22,129 nt of DNA from a virus (IMGVR_UViG_3300009156_000091:1-22129); one strand, 5' to 3'; positions 954 through 22,129 are shown, counted from the stretch's first letter. Notes: a model not told the origin generated them from the letters alone. Program-made: numbers and translations.

Positions 954-1570
954 TAGGCGTTTTGACTCCAGGAGACCAGCTGCCAGACCGCGCCGACATA
1001 GGGCGCGCGCACATACGTCACCACATCATTCTGGGTGGGCGTGATGTTGCTCCCGCCCGGATGCCGGATGGGCGTGCCGTGAACCAGCGTGGTTTGGCCG
1101 TTCATGAACAGAATCACGATCTCGTGGCCAAACACCCAATCATCAAAATCGGTGATGAGTGTCGCGTTCGTGTTGTTGCAGATGAAGACGGTGCCTGAGC
1201 GGACCGATGGCGTCACGTCCCCATCCGCAAACGTGTCGACCCCGTTGGCGTTTGCCCCCATCGGGACCAGGGCTTGATGAATCAACTTCCGGCCTGGCCC
1301 CAGATACAACTTCTGGCCGCCTGCGCTGGAATCCAACACCAGATACCGCGTCAGCGCATCCGGGGATCCGTAGCTCAGTTGGCCCAAGCCGTACTCCCAA
1401 TAGGGTCCCCACTTGATGGCGTAGTAACACCAGGCCCCATCGGCATACTGATCACGGAAGCGCAGGCAATCGCCGCTGACGATCCCGCCCAGCGAGATGA
1501 TCGCGTGGCCTTCCGTGAGGCTCTGCTCCTCCACCTGGAAGGACAGGAGGCAAAACCGGTTCCCGCTCAT
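953..1570 (-). CDS. Minor tail/fibre-like protein, copy 2 of a tandem pair
   Basis: 205 residues. The start ATG overlaps the upstream stop as ATGA (1570-1567) and the stop overlaps the hub start. The N-terminal half carries the phage minor-tail pattern CYYAIKWGPYWEYGLGQL followed by LTRYLVLDSSAGG. Many phages have this small beta domain with 'CYY-I-----WE-GLG' and 'LsRd-vl-Ss'. The C-terminal half (DGDVTPSVRSGTVFICNN, then TTLVHGTPIRHPGGSNITP) resembles a beta-rich module found at the ends of tail fibres and spikes. It is colinear with the next gene upstream along its whole length, so the two are paralogues. This copy has drifted more in its N-terminal part, where the TSTTGTGT motif of the other copy has become QSLTEGHA. 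It is probably a tail-tip accessory or host-contact protein; exact role unknown. Confidence 0.8.
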   Translation of the reverse strand: MSGNRFCLLSFQVEEQSLTEGHAIISLGGIVSGDCLRFRDQYADGAWCYYAIKWGPYWEYGLGQLSYGSPDALTRYLVLDSSAGGQKLYLGPGRKLIHQALVPMGANANGVDTFADGDVTPSVRSGTVFICNNTNATLITDFDDWVFGHEIVILFMNGQTTLVHGTPIRHPGGSNITPTQNDVVTYVRAPYVGAVWQLVSWSQNA

Positions 1571-2163
1571 GCATTCACCGAGCGGCCCGCCTCATACCAC
1601 GCCCCCGCCACGCGGACCAAGCGCATCATGTCGTTGGCCGTCCCGACAAAGTTGCTGCCCCCGGAGAGGCGCAGGCTGGCGCCGTGGACGATGGTCGTGT
1701 TGCTGTTGGTGAAATGGACAGTGATCTGTTGGCCGTCGATGCCGCCGTCAAAGAACGTGATGGAGGTGCTGCCCGTATTGGCGGCAATCCAGACGTTTCC
1801 CAAGCGCACGTCTGGCGTGGTGTCGCCATTGCCAAACTGTTGCGTGCCGTTGTTCAGGCAGGCTTCCGGCGGGATCGCATTGATGACGGTCTTGATCCCG
1901 GCGGCAAAGTTGACCAGGACCATCGACCCACCGCTGCCGTCGATCACCAGATCCCTAGACAATTGGTTGCTCGAATTGATCGTGCCTAGGCCATACTCGT
2001 AGGACGTGGGGTTGGCGTAGATGAAATAGTAACACCTGCCGCCGTTCCCAAACGCCGACAGAAACGTGCGGTAGGTGCTGCCGAGCGCGCCAGCCAATTG
2101 GACGGTGCCGGTGCCGGTCGTGGAGGTGGTCTCATAGACTCGGGGACTGAGGAAACGCGGCAT
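1567..2163 (-). CDS. Minor tail/fibre-like protein, copy 1 of a tandem pair
   Basis: 198 residues. The start ATG shares one base with the tape-measure stop (TGATG). The N-terminus RVYETTSTTGTGTVQLAGA, then CYYFIYANPTSYEYGLGTI and LSRDLVIDGSGGS, is the common form of a small beta domain found in many phage minor tail proteins. The C-terminal half (NGDTTPDVRLGNVWIAANTG, TTIVHGASLRLSGGSN, AGAWYEAGRS) is a fibre/spike-type beta module. It lies directly after the tape measure, where siphophages keep tail-tip genes. No signal peptide or membrane segment is seen, as expected for a virion part. Structural role is well supported; the exact function is not. Confidence 0.85.
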   Translation of the reverse strand: MPRFLSPRVYETTSTTGTGTVQLAGALGSTYRTFLSAFGNGGRCYYFIYANPTSYEYGLGTINSSNQLSRDLVIDGSGGSMVLVNFAAGIKTVINAIPPEACLNNGTQQFGNGDTTPDVRLGNVWIAANTGSTSITFFDGGIDGQQITVHFTNSNTTIVHGASLRLSGGSNFVGTANDMMRLVRVAGAWYEAGRSVNA

Positions 2164-4391
2164 CAGGCACCTGCTCCTTCCCAGCGCCAGGCTGACATCT
2201 GATGCCTCGTGGTCGCTCTGGCGATCTGCTTGCCATCGACATAGACTTTGGTGATGATGGGCCGATCCTCTCTGTCGCCAAACGGGTTGCCCTTGCCCAA
2301 CGGAATGACGGCCTCAGGTCCGGCTTCACCCAGCATGCCCAGCGTCGGGCCAGTGACGATCCCGCCCTTCGCAAACTTCACCGCCTTCAATGCCACAAGG
2401 GCCGCGCCAATCAGCACGACCCCAGAGAGGATGGCGCCTGCCCAGATGGCGCCGACGCCGGTGAACCCGAGGGCTGTGCCGATCGCTGAGAGCACTCCCA
2501 TGATGGCCTCGCCAACGGCAACAACAATCGTGACGAGCGTCGTGAACATCGTCGCCATGGCGGTTGTCACTGTGCCCCAGACGCCCACGACGAAGCCGGC
2601 CGCACTCGCCCAGACGCCAGCCACCCCAGTGGCGGTGACTTCATTGACGATCAACGTCTTGACTGCGGTCGCCACAGCAGACACGCCCATGTTGATGAAG
2701 CCTTGAATGATGGCGATCTGCGTCGACTCCCACGCGGCCTTGAGGTCGCCGCCTTTCACGATCATCGTGGCGATGCTGCTCGACCATGTGCTGACCATCT
2801 GGCCCATCGAAAACACGTTGCTGGCCTGCAGATCATTGAGCTGCTTCTCCCAGAACGTGGGGAATTCGTTGGCGGCCGCCATCTTTCGTGCGCGCTCCCG
2901 GTTGTCGATGTTCTCGAGAACCTGCGCCAGCTTTTCGGCATCTCTGATTTGATCGTTGGCAATTTTGCGCAGTTTCTCTGCCTCCGCTTCAATCGCGCCG
3001 ATCCGCACCCGCCGGCGCGCCTCAGCGGCACCAGAGAACAGAATCTCTTGCTCATAGGTCTGCTGCTGAATTTCTTCGAGGGCGGCATAGCGCTCGATCT
3101 CATCATCTAGGGCCGCCATCTCCTCGCCTTTGGTGGCCACGAACACCGCGGTCCCAGCTTGCAACCGCTGCGTCTCGCCTTGGACGCGCGCCACACTCAA
3201 CTGGGTTTCCAGCTGCGCAAGCTTGAGCGCCGATTCAGCCGCAAACTTGTCCCGCGCTTCGATGCTCTTGGCGTCGCTGCCATAGGCAGCCTTCTTCTCC
3301 TCGGCATACAGTTTGTAGTTCTCGATCTCCAGTTCGAGATTGCTGACCACATTGTCCGTGGAGGCCCGCACGATGTCAGCGCGCTCCTTGGCGATCTCCA
3401 GCTCTGTTTTCTGATAGAGGGCCTTGCGCTGGTCCTGGAGCGCTGCGTTGTAGGCCAGCTCCGCATCGCCGAGGGCCTTCGCGTCAGCAAACGATTGCTC
3501 GTTGAGTTTGAAGCGGGCGTCAAGCGCCGACTGGCGCGCGGCATTCATCTTGCCGCTGTCGACAAGTGGTGGCGCCTTGGGCTTTGACACCTTCGGCGCC
3601 TCACTGCCAGCCATCCCCAAAAACTCCCGCAGTTCTTTGAGGGCCTGCGACGCCCACGACAGCATGTTGACGAACAGCTCCGTGACCCATTGGATCGCCG
3701 GAGCGACCAGGGCGCCTAGGTTGCCAGCAAAAAACTTCCAGGCCATCGACAGATCATCCAAGGCATCATCCATCGCGGTCAGGGCCGCGATCTGATCGGC
3801 GGACAGCTGCCCCATCTTCTTGGCTTTTTCAGCGGCCTCATCCAGAGCTTTCGCGCCATCTTTCATGGCGGGGATCCAGGCCAACCCCGCCTTGCCGAGC
3901 AGGCTGCTCACGATGGCGGCCTTCTCGGTGCCGTCGGCAAACTGGGACACCGAATTCATCACCTTGCGAATCAGATCGTCGGTGTCAGTCACCTTCCTGA
4001 TGTCGATGCCCAGCTGCCGGAACCGATCTGCCGCCTCGCCGGTGCCGCTCTGGGCCTCCTCCAGATTCTTGGAGAGGGCCTTCATCATCTGCGTCATGTC
4101 CTGGCCGGACAGGCCGACGCGATTCATCGCCACTTCGTAGCCCTGGAGCGTGTCGGTGCTGATGCCGGTGATCTGGCTCAGCTGCTCCAGCTCCTCAGCG
4201 GCCTTGCCAGCCTGAATCGTCATGTAGACGATCGCCGTTCCCGCCGCGACGAAGGCGGCCGCCATGATCTTGCCGGCGTTCTTCATGGCGCTCGCGGCGC
4301 GAGTGCCGCCCTCGCCGATCTTCTGCAGCTCCTTGGACAGCTCGCTGGCGTCAGCGGCAATCTTGACGACGAGGGTGCCTATGTCCGCCAT
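2163..4391 (-). CDS. Tail tape measure protein
   Basis: 742 residues, starting immediately after the upstream stop. The order of regions is typical of tape measures: a short beta-like N-terminus (IGTLVVKIAADASELSKEL), a hydrophobic segment near residues 41-60, a region with the 'GISTDTLQGYEVAMNRVGLS' pattern common to tape measures, long charged coiled coils at about 280-520, a strongly hydrophobic stretch at about 566-672, and the conserved C-terminal motif GPTLGMLGEAGPEAVIPL at about 681-698. It would set tail length and occupy the tail lumen. At the usual rule of about 1.5 Angstrom per residue the tail would be near 110 nm (inference). It follows the G/T chaperone genes, its usual neighbours. 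No lysozyme or peptidase domain is recognised inside it. Confidence 0.96.
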   Translation of the reverse strand: MADIGTLVVKIAADASELSKELQKIGEGGTRAASAMKNAGKIMAAAFVAAGTAIVYMTIQAGKAAEELEQLSQITGISTDTLQGYEVAMNRVGLSGQDMTQMMKALSKNLEEAQSGTGEAADRFRQLGIDIRKVTDTDDLIRKVMNSVSQFADGTEKAAIVSSLLGKAGLAWIPAMKDGAKALDEAAEKAKKMGQLSADQIAALTAMDDALDDLSMAWKFFAGNLGALVAPAIQWVTELFVNMLSWASQALKELREFLGMAGSEAPKVSKPKAPPLVDSGKMNAARQSALDARFKLNEQSFADAKALGDAELAYNAALQDQRKALYQKTELEIAKERADIVRASTDNVVSNLELEIENYKLYAEEKKAAYGSDAKSIEARDKFAAESALKLAQLETQLSVARVQGETQRLQAGTAVFVATKGEEMAALDDEIERYAALEEIQQQTYEQEILFSGAAEARRRVRIGAIEAEAEKLRKIANDQIRDAEKLAQVLENIDNRERARKMAAANEFPTFWEKQLNDLQASNVFSMGQMVSTWSSSIATMIVKGGDLKAAWESTQIAIIQGFINMGVSAVATAVKTLIVNEVTATGVAGVWASAAGFVVGVWGTVTTAMATMFTTLVTIVVAVGEAIMGVLSAIGTALGFTGVGAIWAGAILSGVVLIGAALVALKAVKFAKGGIVTGPTLGMLGEAGPEAVIPLGKGNPFGDREDRPIITKVYVDGKQIARATTRHQMSAWRWEGAGA

Positions 4392-4694
4392 CTACACCGG
4401 TCCCTTCTGCTTGTTGGCCAGGCCTTGAAAGAAGGACAGGACCTGCTCACTTGAGATGCTCGTGCGCCTGCGCGTCTGAAACCTGGGCTTGAATTTGAGC
4501 CGGAAGTCGTCAATAGAAAACGACTGACCCTTCTTGGCGTTGACGTTCGCAATCGTCGACGCAATGATCGCCGCCTGCGTGTCAGTGCGCCAGGGCCCAA
4601 AGGGTTGCAGCTGATAAAACGCCATCCAGTCCACGAACTCATCGTTGCTCATCACCTCTTGCCATTCACCGATGGTGCGTCCGCCAAGCGCCAA
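4392..4694 (-). CDS. Tail assembly chaperone T domain (made mainly as G-T frameshift fusion)
   Basis: 100 residues if read from TTG 4694, but the frame is open upstream and continuous with the -1 frame of the G gene back to the slippery site at 4736-4742. Read through, it gives LEARPERRFWHELALALGG and then IGEWQEVMSNDEFVDWMAFY. The strings 'RFWHELALALG' and 'EF-dW-AfYqL-PFG' are characteristic of the lambda gpT/GP-G-T domain. Frameshifting would give a G-T fusion of about 238 residues (124 from G plus 114). The isolated TTG start has no visible Shine-Dalgarno sequence and lies 2 bases after the G stop, so the fusion is the more likely product. It would bind tail tube and tape measure during assembly and would not be in the finished virion. 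The tape-measure ATG follows the stop directly. Confidence 0.85.
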   Translation of the reverse strand: MALGGRTIGEWQEVMSNDEFVDWMAFYQLQPFGPWRTDTQAAIIASTIANVNAKKGQSFSIDDFRLKFKPRFQTRRRTSISSEQVLSFFQGLANKQKGPV

Positions 4695-4696
4695 TG

Positions 4697-5107
4697 CTAG
4701 TTCGTGCCAGAATCGACGCTCGGGACGCGCTTCAAGTTTTTTATTTTGTCCTCCAACTCCTGCGACCGCAAGCCGCTCAGGCGCTGGGCCACGTCAAACA
4801 GCCGATCCAACGCCGCGCCATTCTTTTCACCTAATGCCTCGATGTCCTCCTTGGTGAAGAGGAGGGTGCCGTTCGCATCGCAGAGCGACACCGCCAGCAG
4901 TGCCGCCCGCGTGTTGTCGTAGACGATCTCGACCTTGTCGCCGATCATCTTGTAGCGGGACCGCTCGAACTGGTCCCGCTGCCTGCCGGTCATGTTCCGC
5001 ACGTGGACGACGCCGCCCCACTCGGGGACGTCGACCGCTTCGATCGTGGCGTCCATCGCGGCGAGGATCTGGTCGCGCGTCAGTGGCGATTTGCCGTTGC
5101 CTTCCAT
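4697..5107 (-). CDS. Tail assembly chaperone G
   Basis: 136 residues, ATG at 5107 preceded by an AGGAGGAG Shine-Dalgarno sequence. The N-terminal region (LTRDQILAAMDATIEAVDVP, then EWGGVVHVRNMTGRQRDQFE) matches the phage tail chaperone pattern 'v-vpEWGG-v-vr-ltg-erd-fe'. It sits between the tail tube and the T/tape-measure genes, the usual gpG position. The last codons contain A AAA AAC in frame, where ribosomes can slip to make the G-T fusion. It should coat the tape measure and recruit tube subunits. Assignment by pattern and position. Confidence 0.88.
   Translation of the reverse strand: MEGNGKSPLTRDQILAAMDATIEAVDVPEWGGVVHVRNMTGRQRDQFERSRYKMIGDKVEIVYDNTRAALLAVSLCDANGTLLFTKEDIEALGEKNGAALDRLFDVAQRLSGLRSQELEDKIKNLKRVPSVDSGTN
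4736..4742 (-). other. Programmed -1 ribosomal frameshift site, A AAA AAC
   Basis: On the coding strand the zero-frame codons are ATA AAA AAC (4744-4736), giving the canonical X-XXY-YYZ heptamer A AAA AAC. It lies 12 codons before the G stop at 4699-4697. A -1 slip continues as CTT GAA GCG and stays open to the T stop at 4392. The peptide encoded across the shift region looks like conserved gpT sequence, which supports real translation of this frame. I did not identify a clear downstream stem or pseudoknot by eye. Confidence 0.87.
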
Positions 5108-5130
5108 GGGTGCTCTGCTCCTCCTTGATG

Positions 5131-5589
5131 TTATGGTGCCACAGTGATTGCCAGGGCGCCAGTGATCCTGAGTGTCATCTTGCTGCTCATCACGTCGTCA
5201 GTCGGAAACTCCTTTGGCAGCCCAGTCACATACGCCTGAAAGGCGATCGAGGCCACCTTGGCGTTGTTCGGGTTGGCGGGGCACACGATCTGATAGTCGC
5301 GCTTCGTGCGGGCCTGGAGATCCGCCCACAGCGCGGCGTGCGTCGTGTCGTCAGGCACCCAGTTCATGTCCACATCGATCGTGCCTGGATCAATGAGGCT
5401 CGGGATGAACTCGCGATAGTTGCCCGATGCTGCCGAGCTGTGGGTCGTCACATCGATGGTGCTCACCTCTGTGGACGGCCCGCTGATGTTCTTCACCTCA
5501 CCGAGGGTCGTGTAGGATGGCGTTGTTCCCGCCGTGGCCCCACTCCTCTTCAACAACGTTCCATAGGCAGGAATTGCTTGGCTTGACAT
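5131..5589 (-). CDS. Major tail tube protein
   Basis: 152 residues from ATG 5589, chosen because AAGGAGGAGAATC lies just before it; an upstream in-frame start at 5640 would add an arginine-rich leader overlapping the preceding gene. The N-terminus (YGTLLKRSG, then LGEVKNISGPSTEVSTIDVT) and the later FIPSLIDPGTIDVDMNW are typical of siphophage tail tube proteins, which begin with a 'G-v-sisgp--t---id-T' strand pattern. It lies between the tail-terminator-like gene and the G chaperone, the position of lambda V. Hexamers would stack to form the tail tube around the tape measure. No C-terminal Ig-like domain is present: the protein ends about 20 residues after the MTLRITG strand. Confidence 0.9.
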   Translation of the reverse strand: MSSQAIPAYGTLLKRSGATAGTTPSYTTLGEVKNISGPSTEVSTIDVTTHSSAASGNYREFIPSLIDPGTIDVDMNWVPDDTTHAALWADLQARTKRDYQIVCPANPNNAKVASIAFQAYVTGLPKEFPTDDVMSSKMTLRITGALAITVAP

Positions 5590-5608
5590 GATTCTCCTCC
5601 TTGTTGAG

Positions 5609-6055
5609 TTACGTCCACGGATTGCCTCGCGCGTGCTCATAGGTCACTTCGATCCGCACCCCGCGCGAGAGGTGGGGCGTCTCGGCGTCCACATCCAATC
5701 GAATGTACTCGGGCACGCTGGTCATGAGCGCCAGCTTGCCCCAGGTCTCATCGGCGCCGATGACCTGCTCGATCTCGGCGATGAAGCCGTTGAGGACCTC
5801 CCCGCCGCTCCGGGCGTCTGACTCCTCGTCGATCCCGGTGGCCACGACGATGAGCACTTCCAAGAGGCGGCGAATGCGCTCGTGGCTCGACTTCGTCAGC
5901 TCGGCTGCGCAGTCACCTTCGCGCACCAGGATCGTCGGCATCGTGCCCAGATCCATCCCGCTGGCCTGATGCCGCTGGACAGATTTGATGTTGGGGATCG
6001 TTGCCAGCGCGGCGGCGATCGCCTTGATGATCTGCTCTTGGAGCGAGTCGCTCAT
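5609..6055 (-). CDS. Tail terminator/completion protein (gpU-like)
   Basis: 148 residues. The start overlaps the upstream stop (ATGA, 6055-6052). The pattern is an N-terminal helix (QEQIIKAIAAALATIPNI), central strands (PTILVREGD; LLEVLIVVATG), a long helix (GGEVLNGFIAEIEQVIG) and a terminal strand ending VTYEHARGNPWT. That arrangement, including the closing 'v-Y-h-rgnP' string, is common in phage minor tail U/tail terminator proteins. It lies between the Z-like and tube genes, as in lambda Z-U-V. It would cap the growing tail tube and join it to the head. Called from fold pattern and gene order rather than a specific motif. Confidence 0.8.
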   Translation of the reverse strand: MSDSLQEQIIKAIAAALATIPNIKSVQRHQASGMDLGTMPTILVREGDCAAELTKSSHERIRRLLEVLIVVATGIDEESDARSGGEVLNGFIAEIEQVIGADETWGKLALMTSVPEYIRLDVDAETPHLSRGVRIEVTYEHARGNPWT

Positions 6056-6579
6056 ATCTTCTTCACCGTCCTCTTCAAGGCGTTGCTCATCGCCACCTCG
6101 ACGCCCTTCTGCCCGGCATGGGCCACCCTGACAAGGATCTGCGGTGCCTCTTGATTCACCAGCGTCTGGAAGTGAAGCCGCTTCGGGATCACCACCTGAG
6201 GCACCACGGCAAAGATCACGCCGCCCTTCGGGGAGCCTCTGCCCCGGCGCTTGAGGTAGAGCATCCCTGCGCTCGCGCGCGGTCTAATGGTCGCGCCCTT
6301 CTCGTGGACGTGGAGCAGGCTGCTGATCCCGATGTGGCCAGACAGATCTGCGTGGGTGTCGCCCTTCACGAAGGTGAACACGTTCCTGCCTTTGGAGAGT
6401 CGCCCCGAGGCGCGAATCCCCGGCGGGCCTTTCAACTGCTCGGTGATGAACTTCTTGCGCAGGCGCTTCAAGCCGCGGCCCAACTCCCGGCGCATGAACT
6501 GAAGTGACTTCTTGTCGGCCTCGCTCACGCCCCGCAAGAAGTCGGGCATGTTGACGATGCTCGCGCTGATGTTCATCAT
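6052..6579 (-). CDS. Tail completion protein (gpZ / HK97 gp10-like)
   Basis: 175 residues. The start overlaps the upstream stop (ATGA, 6579-6576); a second ATG follows at once, so the start is uncertain by one codon. The N-terminus is a basic, helical region (LGRGLKRLRKKFITEQLKG). The middle has LHVHEKGATIRPR and YLKRRG, and later VVIPKRLHFQ. The 'HE-Ga-I-p' string followed by a 'vPkR' strand is typical of HK97 gp10-like and minor tail Z proteins. It precedes the U-like gene as in lambda, and would act at the tail-to-head joint. Confidence 0.82.
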   Translation of the reverse strand: MMNISASIVNMPDFLRGVSEADKKSLQFMRRELGRGLKRLRKKFITEQLKGPPGIRASGRLSKGRNVFTFVKGDTHADLSGHIGISSLLHVHEKGATIRPRASAGMLYLKRRGRGSPKGGVIFAVVPQVVIPKRLHFQTLVNQEAPQILVRVAHAGQKGVEVAMSNALKRTVKKI

Positions 6580-6872
6580 AGTTCCCGCACCTTCATGAGC
6601 ACATCCTCTTGGAGGTGGTCGCTGTTGGACAAGTAGGCATCAAAGGTGATGCGATAATCCAAGCCGTGCTGCCCGTCCTTCACTTGAATCAACGTCTGCG
6701 TGCCGCTGATACTCGCCAGCGTGTTGCTGATCACCGAATTGTCCACCACCATGTCGGGATACCTGGTCGCATAGACGTTGCAGCTGAAGAGGTCGGCGCC
6801 AGGCGGCAGGCGCCCCTGCCATTCAATGGCGATGACGTGGGCTTCGGCGGGCTGCTTTTCAAATTTTTCCAT
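6576..6872 (-). CDS. Small phage structural protein, beta-rich, unassigned
   Basis: 98 residues from ATG 6872, chosen because GAGGGG lies 5-10 bases upstream and the longer in-frame leader (to 7016) overlaps the preceding gene with an unlikely Arg/His-rich composition. The pattern AIEWQGRLPPGADLFSC, then SGTQTLIQVKDGQHGLDYRI, then FDAYLSNSDHLQEDVLMKV suggests a small immunoglobulin-like beta sandwich. Similar short proteins are common in phage structural operons. It is the last gene of the block between the head-joining and tail-completion genes. It could be a small fibre-attachment or decoration protein; I do not recognise a named family. Confidence 0.75.
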   Translation of the reverse strand: MEKFEKQPAEAHVIAIEWQGRLPPGADLFSCNVYATRYPDMVVDNSVISNTLASISGTQTLIQVKDGQHGLDYRITFDAYLSNSDHLQEDVLMKVREL

Positions 6873-6880
6873 GTGGCCCC

Positions 6881-9800
6881 TCACGCTCGAAAGACATACT
6901 GCCGCGCCCGCGCGCGAATGATGACGACGTGCCCTGCTGCGGTGAAGATGTAGTGCCGGCACTTGGCCATGAAGATCCATTCTGGCGTGAGCCCGCCTGT
7001 CGTCAGGTCGCCACACAGGCGCCCCTGCCCGACGCTCCCGCCAGCTGAGACTGGCAACGCACTCGCAAAGATCCCGACCGCATGCCCGCCACTCGCAAGG
7101 CTGACTGCCCTATACGGATCAGGGAAGGTGCCCGTCAGCCGCGCCTGCTCCCGGCTCACACTTGTGAGGGATTTCCGCGTACCCAGCGCGCCGGCAGCCC
7201 ACGCGGTCGCCAGGATGGGTGAGGGTGGATAGACGGCGTGCAGATCCCCTCTGACCCGGACTGTCGCTAGGATCCGGCCCTGGACGGGCAGGAGCACACC
7301 GCCGGTGAAGGCCAGCACCGCCTGGGTATGGGGATGGCTCCGGCTGACGCTCACCAACACCACCTTGCCTGAGAGGATCGCGCTCAGGACCAGGCCTGAA
7401 CCTTGAATGGATGAGGCCGCATAAAACGTTGATGGCAAGGTCCCGACGACACGTGCTGGGTTGTGGCTCAGGCCCTCAAGGTCTTGGACAGTAGGTGGCG
7501 CGTTGGCAAGGATGCCACTTGCCTGCCCTGTGGACACACTCCGTCCGATGAGGCCCTGCTGCTGAGCAAGGCTGCCTCTGGCCACACCGGTCCCTATGAG
7601 AGGAGAGGCCGCCGCATAGGTTCGCACGGTGGCGCCGCGCGCTCGTGGTGCCGCCCGCAGGATGCCGCCTTGAATCTGGATAAAATTCGGCGGGCTGAAT
7701 CCCATCGGCGCGCACTGGACTGCGCCGATGTCTCGACTCACGCCAGAGAGCGGTGGCCGCTGAAGCAGCAGACCCCGGCTCTGCCCAGTCGCCAGGACAT
7801 AGCCCACCAATTGTTGCCTGGTGCCGAACGGTCCTGCCAAACGTCCCGGCGCACGCACTCGCCCTTGGAGGCCAATCTTGAGGACCGCATTGAAGAAGGG
7901 TTGCCCGGAGGCCCGCCCAGATCCGATGGTGGCGGCCACGTCGTGGCGGAGATGGATGCTGCCGATCGCGCGGGCTGGATCCCGACTGGGGGTCGCATAG
8001 TACAGCCCTTGGACGGGCAGACTTGACGACCGGCTGCTGAGGCGCACGATGCCCTGGATTGACACGCGCGGCCCGCCGCTGAATTGGAGTTGCCCTTGTG
8101 CGCGCGGGCTGGATCGCAGCCAGGCGTTTGCAATGATGACTTTCGGCCCGCCTGCAAACGACAGCGAGCCGGTGACGCGGCATGCTCCGCCTTTGAGCGG
8201 CCCCACCGCGTGGAGCGTTTCTGCCTTGCCCATCACACGGGGAGCAAAATGCCTGGCAGCAGAGGGCGCATATTGACTGGCCATCCCCAAGGTCGTGACG
8301 GTCCTTGCGCGACCGGACGCCAGCATCGGCGCGGTGTGGAACACGCGTTGGATCACGGCGCCAGGGAGCCGGCCAGACAATCGGATCGGCGTGCTGTAAT
8401 AGATGATGTCGAGGCTGCCCACGGTGATGACGCGCATGGCGGACCGACTGGGGCCAGGCGTCATCGTGGTGGTCGGTCCGCCCGCAAAGCGGAGCGCCGC
8501 GCCAAGGCGTGGATGCGCCATCACGACGCTCGCATCATAGCGGATATACAAGCGCCCGCTGGCGCGACCGGAGGCCCGCATCGGTCCGGCATAGTGATAG
8601 TTGGTGAACGACACACTTAGCGCCCGCGGGCTCATCGGATCCCGCCCCGTCAGCTGCGGCGTGTTGAGGTAGGAGGGATTGACCGCCGTGCCAAACTGGA
8701 CCGACAGCTGCCCGGTCGACAATGCCCAGCTCATCATGGTCGTTCCTCCGGTTGCCGCTTCGAAACTCATCGCGCCACTCTGGACCCCAGCAGCGCCGAT
8801 GTTCCAGAGGACCGTTTGCCCTGGTCCCACAGTGAGGGCAGGTGAGAGGTTGGCACTGAGGACGTCCAGGGCATACTGACCCGGCTGTGTGGGCACCCCC
8901 ACTCCCGCCGCAGGGCCATTGAAGTTGCCATAGGTCGGCGGCGTGAATGGGGCGGTGACGTGCACGCCGTTGATCTGTAATCCGCCCGCATGCCCGGATG
9001 CAATCGCGCCGTTGAAGGTAATAGTGACCAGAGCCGTCCCAGCAGGCGGATTCAGCATGAACCAGATCTGGCAGCCCAGGAAAGTCGGGTTGGCATTCGA
9101 GGTCGCGCAATTGCCGACAGGGGTCAGCGCCTGGCCGCCATACGTCACGCCGGTGGGCAGGAATTGGGTCGTGACGGTTTTGAACGTGACGAACACGGCC
9201 AAGCACCGCTGCGGGCCAAAGCCTGTGCAGGTGTGATTCCAGCTGATCACCGACACGTTGGACTTGACGCCGCTGGAGGATTTGTTCGCCAGATCAAAGA
9301 GGATGTTGCCTTGGAACGTGAGTTCGGTGCGCAAGGCCCCGGTGCCAAGGATCCGCCCGCCGCCAAGGTCAAACTTGAGCCCGAGCAACCCTTTGGCCAC
9401 GCTGATGTTGAGGCTGGGCGCTGCGCTCCACGGTGCTTTCAACAGTGCCGGGAGACTTCTGGCGGTGCTCCGCACCGGGGCTGGCGTCACGGCCAATCGG
9501 ACATTCAGCCCAGCTGTTGCCAAAGCCACGTCTCGACTGGGCGCAGCCACGTGCCTGGTCGTGACGACACTGGGCAGGACCCTTCCAATGGACCGGCTCT
9601 GGGCTTGTAGGGCAATGGAGCCTGAGCCAAACGTCATCGGTGCTGTGAGCCGAGCTGTCTCCAGGGTGCGTCCGCTGAGAGGCAGCTTGCTGTTTAATGA
9701 AGCAGTCAGGCGTCCAGCGACCCGCGCAGGCGTTGGGAGCCCATTCAACTTACTAGTGAGGAGTGCTCCAGGCTGGCGCCCTGAGGCAGTGCTCAGGCTC

Positions 9801-10759
9801 CCGCCCAAATCCTGGGTGCCGAATATCGTGAGAGCTGCGGTGGCCCGTCCCTCCGCCCGACTGGGCGTGGCATAACTGACCACATCAAGACTGGACGCAT
9901 CCGCCCGCCCGGTGGCCCGCGCTGGAGCAGGCACCATCGTTGCTGGTGGCGCAGGAAACGTGAGGGCAGATCCTGGCGCGGATCCGGTCGACCGGCTCAC
10001 GCCGCTCAAGGGCAAGAATGAGGCCAGGACCGCGCAGCTGAGGAGGCCCACCGCCCGCATGGGGCTGGCATAGTTGACCATGTCCAAACTGAGCGACACG
10101 CCCCGGCGCCCGCCCGGTTTGCTCGCCCCGCTCATCAAGGCTTTGGGCTGAAAATCGGCGGTGGCAATCCTGGTCCCGGTGCCCGCTGCGGATCCGGTGC
10201 GGAAGTGGACGTCAGACGTGGTGTTGCTGCCCGCTCCCACCCGGCCCCAGGCCACTTGGATGAAGAGATATTCGTTGTTGAGGACGAATGCGCCGGGGTT
10301 GAACGTCACCGTCACGGCCACGTCCGTGGACGTATTGATGGCGCCAGAGGTGGCGCTGGACTGAATGGCGCTGGTGATCTGCGTGGCCCCGCTGCCGTTC
10401 GCGTTCGGCCCCTTGAACAGGCGGACATGCAGCACGCCGGTCCCGCCCGCATTGGTCACGGACCGCATGGCGCCCGTCACTACCCAATTGGCGCTGGCAA
10501 AACTTCCGTTGTAGGTGTTCTGCGACCGCCAGCAATCGAACAGTGAGGTGTCTAGGGTGCCGTTGGGGTAGGTCGTGGCATCGAAAGTAGAGGCAGCCCG
10601 CTCCGCCGTGGCTCCAACCCCGGAGGCCCACTTGGAGCGGTTCGTGGTTCCGGTCGAAACAATCCAGCCTGCCGTGGTGGCCGCGGTGACGACAGACTCC
10701 GTGAGTTGCTGCCAATTGTCGATCCGGGCATCATTGAGGTAGAGGTTGATTGCGGCCAC
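6881..10759 (-). CDS. Giant repeat-rich phage surface protein (putative fibre/adhesin)
   Basis: 1292 residues, the largest gene here, from GTG 10759; an overlapping ATG at 10761 is in another frame and there is no strong Shine-Dalgarno sequence. Visible regions: an N-terminal beta sandwich (about 1-210); a first block of degenerate repeats of about 21 residues (about 221-482); a second beta domain (about 484-700) with the strings AVFVTFKTVT, GVTYGGQALTPVG and WFMLNPPAGTALVTITFNG, a pattern seen in many phage and bacterial surface proteins; a second repeat block (about 711-1255); and a C-terminal unit of three short basic beta strands (about 1264-1292). The repeats have a core like SRAxGRLxAxL followed by short hydrophobic strands. 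No signal peptide, transmembrane segment or enzyme motif is seen. I infer an elongated fibre or head/tail adornment. I do not recognise a named family for the repeats. Confidence 0.8.
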   Translation of the reverse strand: MAAINLYLNDARIDNWQQLTESVVTAATTAGWIVSTGTTNRSKWASGVGATAERAASTFDATTYPNGTLDTSLFDCWRSQNTYNGSFASANWVVTGAMRSVTNAGGTGVLHVRLFKGPNANGSGATQITSAIQSSATSGAINTSTDVAVTVTFNPGAFVLNNEYLFIQVAWGRVGAGSNTTSDVHFRTGSAAGTGTRIATADFQPKALMSGASKPGGRRGVSLSLDMVNYASPMRAVGLLSCAVLASFLPLSGVSRSTGSAPGSALTFPAPPATMVPAPARATGRADASSLDVVSYATPSRAEGRATAALTIFGTQDLGGSLSTASGRQPGALLTSKLNGLPTPARVAGRLTASLNSKLPLSGRTLETARLTAPMTFGSGSIALQAQSRSIGRVLPSVVTTRHVAAPSRDVALATAGLNVRLAVTPAPVRSTARSLPALLKAPWSAAPSLNISVAKGLLGLKFDLGGGRILGTGALRTELTFQGNILFDLANKSSSGVKSNVSVISWNHTCTGFGPQRCLAVFVTFKTVTTQFLPTGVTYGGQALTPVGNCATSNANPTFLGCQIWFMLNPPAGTALVTITFNGAIASGHAGGLQINGVHVTAPFTPPTYGNFNGPAAGVGVPTQPGQYALDVLSANLSPALTVGPGQTVLWNIGAAGVQSGAMSFEAATGGTTMMSWALSTGQLSVQFGTAVNPSYLNTPQLTGRDPMSPRALSVSFTNYHYAGPMRASGRASGRLYIRYDASVVMAHPRLGAALRFAGGPTTTMTPGPSRSAMRVITVGSLDIIYYSTPIRLSGRLPGAVIQRVFHTAPMLASGRARTVTTLGMASQYAPSAARHFAPRVMGKAETLHAVGPLKGGACRVTGSLSFAGGPKVIIANAWLRSSPRAQGQLQFSGGPRVSIQGIVRLSSRSSSLPVQGLYYATPSRDPARAIGSIHLRHDVAATIGSGRASGQPFFNAVLKIGLQGRVRAPGRLAGPFGTRQQLVGYVLATGQSRGLLLQRPPLSGVSRDIGAVQCAPMGFSPPNFIQIQGGILRAAPRARGATVRTYAAASPLIGTGVARGSLAQQQGLIGRSVSTGQASGILANAPPTVQDLEGLSHNPARVVGTLPSTFYAASSIQGSGLVLSAILSGKVVLVSVSRSHPHTQAVLAFTGGVLLPVQGRILATVRVRGDLHAVYPPSPILATAWAAGALGTRKSLTSVSREQARLTGTFPDPYRAVSLASGGHAVGIFASALPVSAGGSVGQGRLCGDLTTGGLTPEWIFMAKCRHYIFTAAGHVVIIRARARQYVFRA
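6995..8629 (-). repeat. Degenerate coding repeats of about 21 residues, block B (about 25 units)
   Basis: Protein-level repeats, residues about 711-1255 of the giant protein. Three sub-types recur: YYATP-type (YHYAGPMRASGRASGRL, IYYSTPIRLSGRLPGAV, LYYATPSRDPARAIGSI), FxGGP-type (LRFAGGPTTTMTPGP, LSFAGGPKVIIANAW, LQFSGGPRVSIQGIV, LAFTGGVLLPVQGRI) and PPLSG-type (RPPLSGVSRDIGAV). The same sub-types recur in block A, so the second beta domain interrupts a single repeat array. Confidence 0.75.
9314..10099 (-). repeat. Degenerate coding repeats of about 21 residues, block A (about 12 units)
   Basis: Protein-level repeats, residues about 221-482 of the giant protein. Example units: VNYASPMRAVGLLSCAVL, LPLSGVSRSTGSAPGSAL, SYATPSRAEGRATAAL, LPTPARVAGRLTASL, HVAAPSRDVALATAGL. 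The shared core is [PG]xxRxxGRxxAxL followed by a short beta-like stretch. DNA identity between units is low, so these are old, diverged repeats. Confidence 0.75.
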
Positions 10760-10814: not shown

Positions 10815-11438
10815 TTAGATCTGCACTAGCAAGGCGTTGATCGCAAACTCCGGGGTGGCGTTCGTGGCCACGGTCACGACTTTGTAGGGCGCAAACAGGG
10901 CTGCCCCTCCCACCGTGATATTCACCGCCGCTCCTCCTGAGGACGTCGACAGCGTGAACACGTCCGCCGTCAGGCCGGTGGCCCGGACGAAGTAGGCGGT
11001 GTTCTCTGAGAGGCCAGTGGGCATGATCGCCCCTGGCGCCGCCATGACATACACCCGCTGATCTGCGACCAGGCCGTGCGCATAGCTGTCAATCGTGTCA
11101 TCGACGTTGCCCACTCCAAACAGCGGCACGTCTGTGTCCAACAATCCGATGGCATGAAGCACGCCTGCCGTGGCTGCGGAGAACACGCCAAAGCCGATTT
11201 GATCTTCATTGGCGCCGGTGTTCTGCGGAAAGGTCACCGCCGCGGTGTTCTTGACCTGGCGCCCGCCAGCTGGGCTGGTGGCTTCCGCTGCAGATTTGGT
11301 CCACGCGGGCCGTGTGCCATAGCCGGTGTAGGCGGCTTCTGTGATGGTCCCTGCCCGCCAGTCGGTGATGCCTTTGATGAGCCCAATGAATCCGCCCAGC
11401 TGACCCAGGCAGGTGTCTCGAAAGGACGTAGTGAACAT
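10815..11438 (-). CDS. Gp80-like phage tail fibre/decoration protein
   Basis: 207 residues from ATG 11438, with GAGGAGG just upstream. The layout resembles phage tail fibre proteins of the Gp80 type: an N-terminal helix (LGQLGGFIGLIKG), 'TITEAAYTGYGTRP' and 'VKNTAAVTFPQNTG-NEDQIGFGVF', then 'AGVLHAIGLLDTDVPL', and a closing strand 'FAINALLVQI'. A second small beta module is inserted at about residues 112-180 (DDTIDSYAHGLVADQRVYVM, LSENTAYFVRATG, DVFTLSTSSGGAAV), a pattern found as an insertion in many phage surface proteins. It belongs to the inserted surface cassette. The exact virion location is not known. Confidence 0.8.
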   Translation of the reverse strand: MFTTSFRDTCLGQLGGFIGLIKGITDWRAGTITEAAYTGYGTRPAWTKSAAEATSPAGGRQVKNTAAVTFPQNTGANEDQIGFGVFSAATAGVLHAIGLLDTDVPLFGVGNVDDTIDSYAHGLVADQRVYVMAAPGAIMPTGLSENTAYFVRATGLTADVFTLSTSSGGAAVNITVGGAALFAPYKVVTVATNATPEFAINALLVQI

Positions 11439-12702: not shown

Positions 12703-13053
12703 CTAAGTCTCCCTCAGTGGATCAATCACGTTCGCCCCCAGGCTGCTGCGCATCGTGTCACCGGAGGAGGTGCCATCGAATGGAAAGAGACACAGCCAAT
12801 CGGTCCCGTCCTCCAGGGCTTCCAGTTCATGCTCATGGTCTTTGTCGACCAGAATAAAATTGGGCGCCTCAATCTCCAGCGCCTTCCCTGCCACCGTCAG
12901 GCGCATCGCCCCGGCGCCAAGGTACGACACATGATGGACATCGTGCTTGTGCAGCGGGATCCGCTCGCCTTGTTTCAATCCCATATACGATTGCACATGC
13001 AGATCGCCTATCGGTCCGACATAGCGCCCCTGATGGCCGGGTCTGCGGCTCAT
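12703..13053 (-). CDS. Small single-domain cupin protein
   Basis: 116 residues; the start overlaps the pectate-lyase stop as ATGA, with AGGAGTG upstream. The cupin core is clear: GERIPLHKHDVHHVSYLGAG with H35 and H37, then a long strand-rich stretch (MRLTVAGKALEIEAPNFILV) and a second motif VDKDHEHELEALED with H73 and H75. The normal Glu ligand of motif 1 seems to be replaced by His 40 or 41. A metal site is plausible. Cupins include sugar isomerases, lyases, oxygenases and non-enzymatic binders, so the function cannot be read directly. Its coupling to the pectate-lyase gene suggests carbohydrate binding or processing, or folding help for the lyase (inference). Confidence 0.8.
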   Translation of the reverse strand: MSRRPGHQGRYVGPIGDLHVQSYMGLKQGERIPLHKHDVHHVSYLGAGAMRLTVAGKALEIEAPNFILVDKDHEHELEALEDGTDWLCLFPFDGTSSGDTMRSSLGANVIDPLRET

Positions 13054-14882
13054 GAGATGGTCACTCCTGTCGGCGGCGCCGGAGGCGTTACGTCACCCCC
13101 GCCACTCGGTGGAGCCGCGCCGTCTCCTGCCAGTTCGTTGATGTACTGCTCCAGGTTCGTATAACCTGAACCGTCAGCCGCTAGCTGCGGTCCGGGGTTG
13201 CCGGTGGGACTGAGGCCGTGAGCGGTCGCCCAAGCATCGGGGATGCCATCATGGTCCGTATCGGTTGGCGCCACCCCTGCCGTCAATGTTGGATACACCG
13301 GCCCGATGAATGTCCCATTGGGCGGGGTGCCGCTGTAGGAGGCGCTGCCGCCGACGCTCCCCGCACGGTTCTGGATCTCGGTCACCAGGCGCGTGTCCAC
13401 GGCATCGCGGATGCTCACAAAGGCGCCGTTGCGAAACACCCGCGAAGGACCGACGGTGGCCAGCACCGTGGCGAGGACTTGCGACCCAGGAGTGGTCGTG
13501 ACGGCGGCATAGGCGGGAATGCTGTAGGGGGTCAAGGCTCTGAAGGGCGTGGCGTCATAATTGGGCCACTTCGCCCAGAGGGTGCTGCCGCTGGCCCCGT
13601 TGTCAGCGCGGTTGATGAACCCCCGCCCGCTCGGCACCCCGAACCCGTCCATGGGGCCAAGGATCGGCAGCGGATCCGCCGCTCGATAGGTATTGTCGGC
13701 CATATACAGCTTCACGCATTCTGAGACCCAGCCACAACCATCGGAGTTGTTGAAACGATCAAACCGCTCGCTCCAGTAGCAGCCGACAATGTTGACCTCG
13801 AACCCTGCCGTGTTCGGCCAGCCGAGAGCCGCCTTATAGCGATCCCGCTCGAATTGCGTATAGAACGGGACGGTGAACACGCTGGGGCCGCCATCGCTCG
13901 ACCAGTTGTGAATGATATTGTTGCGGAAGTCGTAGCGCATCATGGGGCCAGTCGCATCGGGCACGCCGGTGCTGCCCCCGTAAGACCAGGGCGTGGCCAA
14001 TGGTTGCCGTGACCCGCTCTGGGTCCACACACAATGATGGCAGGTCACGGTTTTCATCGTGCCGTAATAGGGTTCATGGCCTGCGATCCCGCCGCAGCTG
14101 TGCGAGAGCCATGGGGCCTTTTGGATATTGCCGTTGCTGTCGGTGGCGATGCTGTGGCCGATGTTCAGCCCCTCCGCGGCAATGCACCATTGCTGGGTCA
14201 CATTCCAGGCGTTCTCGCCTACATCCATGTTCTGATCAGAGGACCATTGCGCATCGCAGTGATCGAGCATGATGTTGTAGGCCACATCAAACACTCGCAT
14301 GGAGGAGATTTGCGAACCGGTCCCGCTCGATGGATTGTTGACCGTGATCTGGGAGCTGGAGTCAACGGACGTGATGGTGGTCCCTAACGGGAAAAACGGG
14401 CTGTAGTGGAACTGCATCCCGACGCGGAAATTGCCGGTGCCTTGGGCGATAGAGGAGACGATGCGCGACCCCGCGGACACATTGCCGGTGCAGACATAGT
14501 ATGGCCCATAGGTCAGCAAGGCATTGGTGTCCCGGCCAGTCGACGGGCTGATCGCGTCGACGCCAGGGCGGATACGGATGAACCGGATGATCACATCGTG
14601 GGTGCTGATGCGCAGGTTGTAGTTCTTGAGTTGGATGCCCATGCCTGGGGCCGTCTGCCCCGCAATGGTGATGTAGGGCTCCTTGATGGTGATGTTGTTG
14701 GTCAGCGGGATCGTCCCGTCCACGCGAAACACGATGTTGCGAGGGCCGGGCCGCTCGACCCCATAGCGAAACGTCCCGACGCTGCCATCATCCGTGAGTT
14801 TGGTGACCTCGTAGACCGCGCCTCCGCGCCCACCGACGCTGTTGGCTCCATACCCTTCAGCCGTTGGAAATGATTTGGGCAT
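13050..14882 (-). CDS. Pectate-lyase-like (PL1-type) depolymerase, putative virion enzyme
   Basis: 610 residues, ATG 14882 with AGGAGG upstream. The N-terminus FPTAEGYGANSVGGRGGAVY, then GPRNIVFRVDGTIPL, YITIAGQTAPGMGIQLKNY and VIIRFIRIRPG, is the classic opening of a PL1-type parallel beta-helix lyase; NIMLDHCDAQWSSDQN at about 203-218 is the usual core motif. A foreign-looking beta module of about 67 residues (about 128-194) interrupts the helix before that motif. Near the C-terminus DTDHDGIPDAW (541-551) is a thrombospondin-3/dockerin-like calcium-binding repeat. The protein ends with PPAPPTGVTIS, which looks like the first strand of a fibronectin-III domain cut short. There is no signal peptide, in keeping with a virion protein. 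It probably cleaves uronic-acid polysaccharide of a host capsule or matrix; the substrate is not readable from sequence. Confidence 0.9.
   Translation of the reverse strand: MPKSFPTAEGYGANSVGGRGGAVYEVTKLTDDGSVGTFRYGVERPGPRNIVFRVDGTIPLTNNITIKEPYITIAGQTAPGMGIQLKNYNLRISTHDVIIRFIRIRPGVDAISPSTGRDTNALLTYGPYYVCTGNVSAGSRIVSSIAQGTGNFRVGMQFHYSPFFPLGTTITSVDSSSQITVNNPSSGTGSQISSMRVFDVAYNIMLDHCDAQWSSDQNMDVGENAWNVTQQWCIAAEGLNIGHSIATDSNGNIQKAPWLSHSCGGIAGHEPYYGTMKTVTCHHCVWTQSGSRQPLATPWSYGGSTGVPDATGPMMRYDFRNNIIHNWSSDGGPSVFTVPFYTQFERDRYKAALGWPNTAGFEVNIVGCYWSERFDRFNNSDGCGWVSECVKLYMADNTYRAADPLPILGPMDGFGVPSGRGFINRADNGASGSTLWAKWPNYDATPFRALTPYSIPAYAAVTTTPGSQVLATVLATVGPSRVFRNGAFVSIRDAVDTRLVTEIQNRAGSVGGSASYSGTPPNGTFIGPVYPTLTAGVAPTDTDHDGIPDAWATAHGLSPTGNPGPQLAADGSGYTNLEQYINELAGDGAAPPSGGGDVTPPAPPTGVTIS
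14301..14501 (-). other. Beta module inserted within the lyase catalytic domain
   Basis: Residues about 128-194 of the lyase. The insert reads VCTGNVSAGSRIVSSI, then VGMQFHYSPFFPLGTTITSV and SSSQITVNNPSSGTG, a 'GS-vvs-i----vGm-v----ip-GttI-svds-t-iTl--p' pattern found as an insertion in many phage tail proteins. It separates GRDTNALLTYGP from RVFDVAYNIMLDHC, which are close together in ordinary PL1 enzymes. Confidence 0.65.
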
Positions 14883-20995: not shown

Positions 20996-22129
20996 TCATC
21001 TCGCCTCCGCCATCAGCGCTATTATAAATGTCCAGACGTTCATCGACGGGCTGCCGAACCAATGCTCCTTCTGCTCATTCGGCGGGTGATATTCGTGCAT
21101 GAAGGTGGCCGGGAAGTGGACCGCGGCGATCCCGGCCCACGTCAGCCCCACGAGGAATACCGCCTGCTGCGGCGGCATCCCATGGAAGTTGCGCCACAGG
21201 GCGTCACCAATGTAGAGGAGCAGCACGCCGAGGCCGATGAGCCCGTGCTCGATCAGCTGGTGGAAGTATTCGTTGTGCGCCGACGTGAACACATGCGGGT
21301 GGAGCGCATCCCCCATCCTGACCGTCTTCGCAAACCAGGTGCAGGTCCCGAAGCCGAAGAGCCACGCCTTCGGGCCGCGCGGCCACCACACCATTTTGAT
21401 CACATCGCGCCAGTAGGCCAAGCGCCCGCTGTCAAACCACGGCTCGCCTGGGTTGCCTTTAATGACCTGCCACCACGGCTTGTCGTTCCACTGATATTGG
21501 TCCTTCAACTCCTTGACGGTGTGCGTCTGCCAGGCGCCGCGGGCATCCCACGTCAGCTTGCCCACCAGCAACAGCCCAGCAGCCGCACTAATCGCAGCCA
21601 CCGTGGGATCTGCGAGGAGGAGGAGCAGGCCGAACACCACCGCCAGCCACCCGACGTGGCCGATGTTCGGGTGGTGCCACTTCTCCAACAGCGTGTTCGC
21701 ATGGTGGGGCAGGTAGCAGAGCACCCAGGCGAAGATCGCCCACCACTGCCCGAGCCACATCAGTCCGATGCAGCAGGCTTGCGCCAGCGCCGAGAACGCG
21801 AGCGTGTGGGTCCTGTTGCTCTGCCCGCACAGGTAGGGGTCGTGCTTCAGATCCTCATAGACGCCCCACATCCCAAACCACGACTGCGGCACGACGAAGC
21901 GATACGGGCGGCGCGACACGACGTACACCAGGCTCGGCGCATCGCGCGCCTCGGCGGTCACCACCATCGCCGGGTCGCGCTCGCCAAGCTTGAGCGGATC
22001 GCCGAGCGCGAGCGGCCGGCCGGTGACGGGCCCGACCAGCTTGAGCAGGCCGAAACCCGACGCGTGGTCGTAGCCGGCGAGCGTCGCCGGCACGGTGCGG
22101 CCGTCGGCGCCGGTGACCTGGATCGCCTC
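20996..22129 (-). CDS. Chimeric frame: S1C protease fragment joined to O-antigen ligase-like membrane protein (partial)
   Basis: The frame is open from the window edge to TGA at 20998-20996 (377 codons visible). The first 75 or so residues (22129 to about 21905: VTGADGRTVPATLAGYDHAS, GFGLLKLV, PAMVVTAEARDAPSLVYVVS) are part of a trypsin-like HtrA/S1C-type protease, strongly recalling alphaproteobacterial proteins. After RRP the text changes to RFVVPQSWFGMWGVYEDLKH, followed by hydrophobic helices, LFGFGTCTWFAK, and SAHNEYFHQLIEHGLIGLG (about 21230-21290), the motif of O-antigen ligase/polymerase (Wzy/WaaL-like) proteins. The GTG at 22093 is an internal codon of the protease frame, not a start. 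G+C also jumps across the junction. The membrane-protein part lacks its own start, so its true N-terminus is unknown. Confidence 0.8.
   Translation of the reverse strand, partial: EAIQVTGADGRTVPATLAGYDHASGFGLLKLVGPVTGRPLALGDPLKLGERDPAMVVTAEARDAPSLVYVVSRRPYRFVVPQSWFGMWGVYEDLKHDPYLCGQSNRTHTLAFSALAQACCIGLMWLGQWWAIFAWVLCYLPHHANTLLEKWHHPNIGHVGWLAVVFGLLLLLADPTVAAISAAAGLLLVGKLTWDARGAWQTHTVKELKDQYQWNDKPWWQVIKGNPGEPWFDSGRLAYWRDVIKMVWWPRGPKAWLFGFGTCTWFAKTVRMGDALHPHVFTSAHNEYFHQLIEHGLIGLGVLLLYIGDALWRNFHGMPPQQAVFLVGLTWAGIAAVHFPATFMHEYHPPNEQKEHWFGSPSMNVWTFIIALMAEAR
21895..21912. other. Probable chimeric junction (protease / membrane protein)
   Basis: Within about 20 bases the encoded protein switches family, from 'VYVVSRRP' of an S1C protease to 'RFVVPQSWFGMW' of a membrane protein. 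Composition switches as well: 46 of 60 bases are G or C at 21961-22020, well above the phage region. The join keeps the reading frame, which may be chance. Misassembly is the simplest explanation. Confidence 0.65.

Follow-up and report, generated by a model that had tools for sequence, protein, structure and literature searches.

The 1292-residue protein encoded on the minus strand of the window (6881-10759, GTG start), i.e. the whole virus record of 22,129 bases analysed here, is likely to serve as the rope in a beads-on-a-string fibre that a siphophage-like virion carries at its head-tail junction, with its C-terminus docked on an adaptor and gp80-like beads carried by about 40 repeat units. 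The portal, capsid/protease and other virion genes of the window are all encoded on one strand, and since a tape measure and tail genes are present, the phage was considered siphophage-like. Pfam and PHROGs gave no family for the protein at E<=1, and no match was found in PDB or, by tblastn, in the phage set. Two statements of an earlier sequence-only reading, that this is a phage structural protein and that its repeat could be assigned to no named family, were upheld. One further contig (L002) encodes an identical copy.

Repeats and domains of the 1292-residue protein

The repeats occupy two blocks, A (residues 206-480, positions 9320-10144, minus strand) and B (residues 716-1255, positions 6995-8614, minus strand). 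The self-autocorrelation of block B peaked at lag 20 (z 4.2 over shuffles), and width 20 was the best for a circular profile HMM of both blocks when compared with equally trained shuffles (z 12.1). Other widths gave z of 8.8 (width 10, a half-period signal), 7.2 (width 21), 2.6 (width 15) and 1.0 (width 23). The HMM parse assigned approximately 13 units of 20-24 residues to block A and approximately 27 units of about 20 residues to block B, i.e. about 40 in total. The sequence-only reading had counted about 37 repeats of about 21 residues and had called for a search for periodicity near this length. Such periodicity was found and the degenerate repeats are real, the best period being 20 residues and the number of units close to 40.

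Block A, when held out of the training, was still recognized by a width-21 HMM built from block B alone (z 11, log-likelihood gain of +16), hence both blocks carry the same repeat, as had been proposed. The width-20 HMM gave z 4.4 on the held-out block, yet its gain over background was slightly negative, which indicates that the units are very degenerate. The array is rich in Ala, Gly, Ser, Pro and Arg, and its repeats are weaker than those in most relatives (autocorrelation z 3.1-4.2). A common core, anticipated by the same reading, was also detected: the pattern [SAR]Rx(1-3)Gx[hydrophobic] occurred 9 times versus 3.3 ± 1.8 in shuffles. At the DNA level only one array, of two copies and 50 bp, was found. 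The low DNA identity between units noticed before was thereby confirmed, and the unlike DNA copies agree with the suggestion that the repeats are old and under selection, and not a product of slippage.

Between blocks A and B lie about 235 residues (481-715, positions 8615-9319, minus strand), in which autocorrelation showed no 20-residue period. This segment had no relative among the fetched loci and no Pfam or PHROG match; a resemblance to domains of L015 noticed by eye was not confirmed by comparison with the fetched loci. Since the two blocks share their repeat and relatives' arrays of the same kind are also broken by other domains, it is likely that one array was split by an inserted domain, in line with the original proposal.

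The N-terminal domain (residues 1-205, positions 10145-10759, minus strand) was modelled by AF2 with pLDDT 80 and pTM 0.80. Its top structural match was to residues 362-555 of PaL 8yzo (Z 12.5, rmsd 3.2, 162 aligned), which represent the C-terminal jelly-roll of CocE/PaL-type hydrolases; the possibility that the domain is an enzyme was rejected on these grounds and no catalytic activity is claimed. Carbohydrate-binding modules appeared lower in the match list, at Z 6-7, a range in which unrelated matches are common. The searches of the phage set and bacterial genomes with the N-domain and the proteins bearing it gave no confirmed relative. This jelly-roll is proposed to form the distal tip of the fibre. 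At the other end, the C-terminal segment (residues 1256-1292, positions 6884-6994, minus strand) consists of short basic/hydrophobic strands, and by eye similar ladders of about 10-residue units were seen at the C-termini of many relatives; we propose that it anchors the protein to the adaptor.

Bead and adaptor genes flanking the repeat protein

Both neighbours of the ORF belong to families known from fibre I of phage GP4. The downstream gene (6576-6872, minus strand, 98 aa) encodes a protein of the GP4 fibre-tail adaptor gp77 family (PF23148, 28.8 bits against a cutoff of 27, E 1.9e-6). The upstream gene (10815-11438, minus strand, 207 aa) encodes a bead of the GP4 fibre I protein gp80 family (PF23140, 35.1 bits, cutoff 27, E 1.9e-8), the match covering residues 28-102 only, and an iterated gp80 HMM whose seed left this bead out also retrieved it. 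Residues 121-185 of the bead form an extra segment, which may be inserted into the gp80 fold and matches Microbacterium phage proteins (about 41 % identity), some of them called minor tail protein.

Fibre I of GP4 is reportedly built of gp80 dimers that are joined through an elongated "rope" protein, and sits on a 15-fold adaptor, each fibre being said to contain five gp80 dimers. The PDB entry 8jou (GP4) contains 10 gp80 chains and 3 gp77 chains, and the gp77 family profile matched GP4 chain 8jou_D (E 0.009). The 10 and 3 chains are the numbers per fibre expected if the 15-fold adaptor bears five fibres. The 15:12 mismatch in GP4 has been described in the DEV paper (PMC10925440).

In GP4 relatives the gene placed between gp80 and gp77 encodes a period-20 protein. 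BcepIL02 gp56, annotated as virion-associated, demonstrated z 8.3, and JC1_54 gave z 4.9 at lag 22 and z 4.3 at lag 20. Parsing by eye yielded about 11 units in BcepIL02 gp56, close to the number of gp80 chains in 8jou (10), which may mean one unit for every bead subunit, or else for every dimer. A sequence search of the PDB set with BcepMigl gp57 as a query gave no rope chain, and the equivalence with GP4 is therefore based on gene position. The window thus shares with GP4 both partner families, each above the Pfam cutoff and adjoining the repeat gene, and with the relatives of GP4 an elongated protein of period 20 encoded between the two, the correspondence of units to beads being inferred. 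The two systems differ in that GP4 is a Ralstonia podophage whereas the window phage is siphophage-like, and the putative rope exceeds in length, about 4- to 5-fold, the ropes of 246-291 aa in Burkholderia relatives of GP4 and has the N-terminal jelly-roll and the mid-array domain.

Period-20 proteins beside beads in other phages

A tblastn search with BcepMigl gp80 gave 223 phage records, and 22 loci were examined. In 18 of the 22 phages the protein ranking first by lag-20 z adjoins the gp80-type bead directly (5.0 expected; not reached in any of 1e6 simulations), this probability being nominal since z was obtained from residue shuffles and the phages, which include close relatives (three Burkholderia and several Mycobacterium phages), are partly non-independent. 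A better calibration is provided by the other proteins: z of at least 2.9 at lag 20 was found for 16 of 22 bead neighbours and for none of 170 non-neighbours. The pooled spectrum of 17 bead-adjacent proteins peaked at lags 20, 40 and 60 (z 17.4, 12.0 and 10.3, respectively). The periodic neighbours include BcepIL02 gp56, POI1126 gp16, C72C1 CDS0008, GeneCoco gp33, Aegeus 25 and Kenna gp32. The neighbour in Luchador was weak (z 1.9), those in MW202796 and Mwe-JY26 had periods of 18 and 23, and no clear period-20 protein was seen beside the bead in ACP17, Rollin and Lietuvens. In mycobacteriophages, proteins annotated as minor tail or hypothetical protein showed clear 20-residue periods beside gp80-type beads (L047:6805-8391, L050:6715-9003 and L061:4789-5949).

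The N-domain itself is encoded at 40 IMG/VR loci. In nearly all these relatives the domain is followed by a long array that has a sequence flavour of its own and is often interrupted by other domains. In all 29 non-redundant relatives the top lag was near 20 or 40, and their pooled spectrum gave z 27.3 at lag 21 and z 21.2 at lag 42; the period of 20-21 residues is therefore kept among proteins whose repeat sequences differ wholly. The gene after the rope usually encodes a small Ig-like adaptor or a head-tail connector. The gp77 domain follows directly in several relatives, including L004, L024, L027, L032 and L033, and in L003 it is fused to a DUF4054 connector. The bead gene is sometimes located 3-4 kb away and in some loci none was found.

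Between bead and rope many relatives encode a small Cys-rich protein (L024:5402-5710, L017:2357-2635, L030:5354-5743 and similar) with a motif near CCRCGECC and a terminal CNVWPxHPxQIxDKPxCxY. The L024 copy had no Pfam match, and the gene is absent from the window. L011 encodes two repeat proteins of like flavour in tandem (1233-2852 and 3099-5957), only the second of which was found by the N-domain search.

The period followed the class of the bead in 20 of 20 loci: 20 residues for gp80-type beads, 21 for class A, 19 for B, 21 for C and 22 for D. This concordance is supportive and not a proof, because whole cassettes share ancestry and clade is confounded with class. The class A beads have relatives in gp127 and gp125 of the Milano garland, which are dimers of the fold through which an extended chain passes in A511 (PMC10811340). 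The pairwise HMM alignment of classes A, B and D to gp80 was unconvincing and they were treated as separate families; class C and L030/40 beads aligned better.

A comparable, "hallucinatory" module has been described for LSH1 gp34-gp36, in which a payload and a long sequence that resisted modelling by AlphaFold occur with a gp80-like dimer and a protein of Ig fold (PMC13243795). Its authors obtained poor beta-helix models for the region in question, doubted the helix and asked whether a repetitive motif was hidden there (PMC13243795). We took Slicko01 WGH49683 for the relative of LSH1 gp34 named there, judging by size and neighbours and not by alignment, and this protein showed lags of 20, 40 and 60 at z of about 8. 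The likeness to the window comprises the payload domain with a long unpredictable sequence, the gp80-like dimer protein, the Ig-fold protein and, in Slicko01, the period of 20, LSH1 being compared by its published description only. The payload is beta-helix lyase-like there and a jelly-roll in the window protein, and the LSH1 authors did not identify a repeat.

It is unlikely that the 20-residue units form the fibre by themselves, stacking as a beta-solenoid or a trimeric beta-fibre with no separate bead, as the sequence-only reading had suggested. The short alternating hydrophobic strands with small residues would suit such a structure, as would a solenoid turn near 20 residues, and the LSH1 beta-helix models, however poor, point the same way (PMC13243795). 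The ORF is, however, flanked by bead and adaptor genes, the period is shared by unrelated phages with the same bead family and differs with other families, and for these reasons a bead-binding string is preferred; the LSH1 authors themselves doubted the helix (PMC13243795). The AF2 monomer of block B had pLDDT 31 and no fold, which would count slightly against a solenoid, but the input was a single sequence, so the model discriminates neither way. The beta-solenoid proposal was not supported.

Another explanation, that the array is a flexible, little-constrained linker spacing the N-terminal and middle domains, with the repeats as remnants of duplication, is very unlikely. It would account for the strong degeneracy, the composition rich in Ala, Gly, Ser, Pro and Arg and the failure of AF2 to fold block B from a single sequence. 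Such a linker would not be expected to keep its period in relatives with wholly different repeats, nor to have one part predicted by the model of the other, as was found for blocks A and B; moreover, the period was absent from the 170 other proteins at the same loci.

The proposed fibre and its significance

According to the preferred reading, in which the protein is a bead-binding rope, its C-terminus would dock on a ring of the gp77-like adaptor, and each of the approximately 40 extended 20-residue units would grip the gp80-like bead encoded by the neighbouring gene, either a single subunit or a dimer. The N-terminal jelly-roll would be held outward together with the mid-array domain, as a payload that may bind surfaces. 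With approximately 6-6.6 nm per extended unit, the fibre might be roughly 250 nm long. The physical binding of beads to the rope, its orientation, stoichiometry and position on the virion, the length of the fibre and its adhesive function were all inferred from the repeats, the gene triad, its recurrence in other phages and the association of period with bead class, which were observed directly.

Bead-chain fibres on a 15-fold neck ring are known from cyanophage A-1(L), whose neck carries five of them (gp82-gp81-gp80) with about 16 beads per 100 nm (PMC10966104). A similar placement is proposed for the window phage. The A-1(L) beads differ in being trimers linked head-to-tail via their own hairpins, and no rope is described there. 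Threading of dimers has been documented in A511, where an extended chain passes through BW3/BW3TFN dimers, three of which are present at the baseplate, and is probable for the Milano garland gp125/gp127, also at the baseplate (PMC10811340). Threaded dimers and the class A beads of the window protein's relatives link these systems to the present one, although the window bead is gp80-type and not class A. Milano gp126, suggested as the string, showed no 20-residue period and was rejected as a period-20 string. Siting of the rope-bead fibre on the baseplate or tail tip, for which the A511 and Milano beads (PMC10811340) and the bead among tail genes in mycobacteriophage and Sporosarcina loci could speak, is highly improbable given that the window triad lies between capsid and tail genes and that L003 fuses its adaptor domain to a DUF4054 connector.

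Several other genes of the window were noted. Two adjacent genes (953-1570 and 1567-2163, minus strand) encode similar-looking beta-rich proteins, the latter matching the phage depolymerase C-terminal domain PF25692 just below the cutoff (23 versus 25 bits). Upstream of the bead gene, 13050-14882 (minus strand) encodes a pectate-lyase-like protein (phrog_27797, E 3.6e-24). The gene at 20996-22129 (minus strand), extending past the contig end, encodes a membrane protein with a motif, HNEYFHQLIEHGLIG, that by eye resembles O-antigen ligases/polymerases.

The same rope-bead design, mostly unannotated, most likely exists in many unrelated phages. With moderate confidence we extend this to a general string-bead fibre of many kinds of tailed phages, in which the bead family would set the repeat length (19, 20, 21 or 22), the fast-diverging, unannotated repeat proteins adjacent to beads, including mycobacteriophage minor tail proteins, would all be strings, and the number of units would fix both how many beads there are and how long the fibre is. 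Unannotated repeat proteins, a large class missed by standard homology and AlphaFold searches, would thereby receive a function, a candidate gene is suggested for the string of GP4-type fibres, and a possible answer is offered to what the LSH1 authors had asked about their module. A 20-residue periodicity beside a bead gene may serve as a search signature for such fibres and, if the number of repeats sets the number of beads, phages hold a readable ruler for fibre length.
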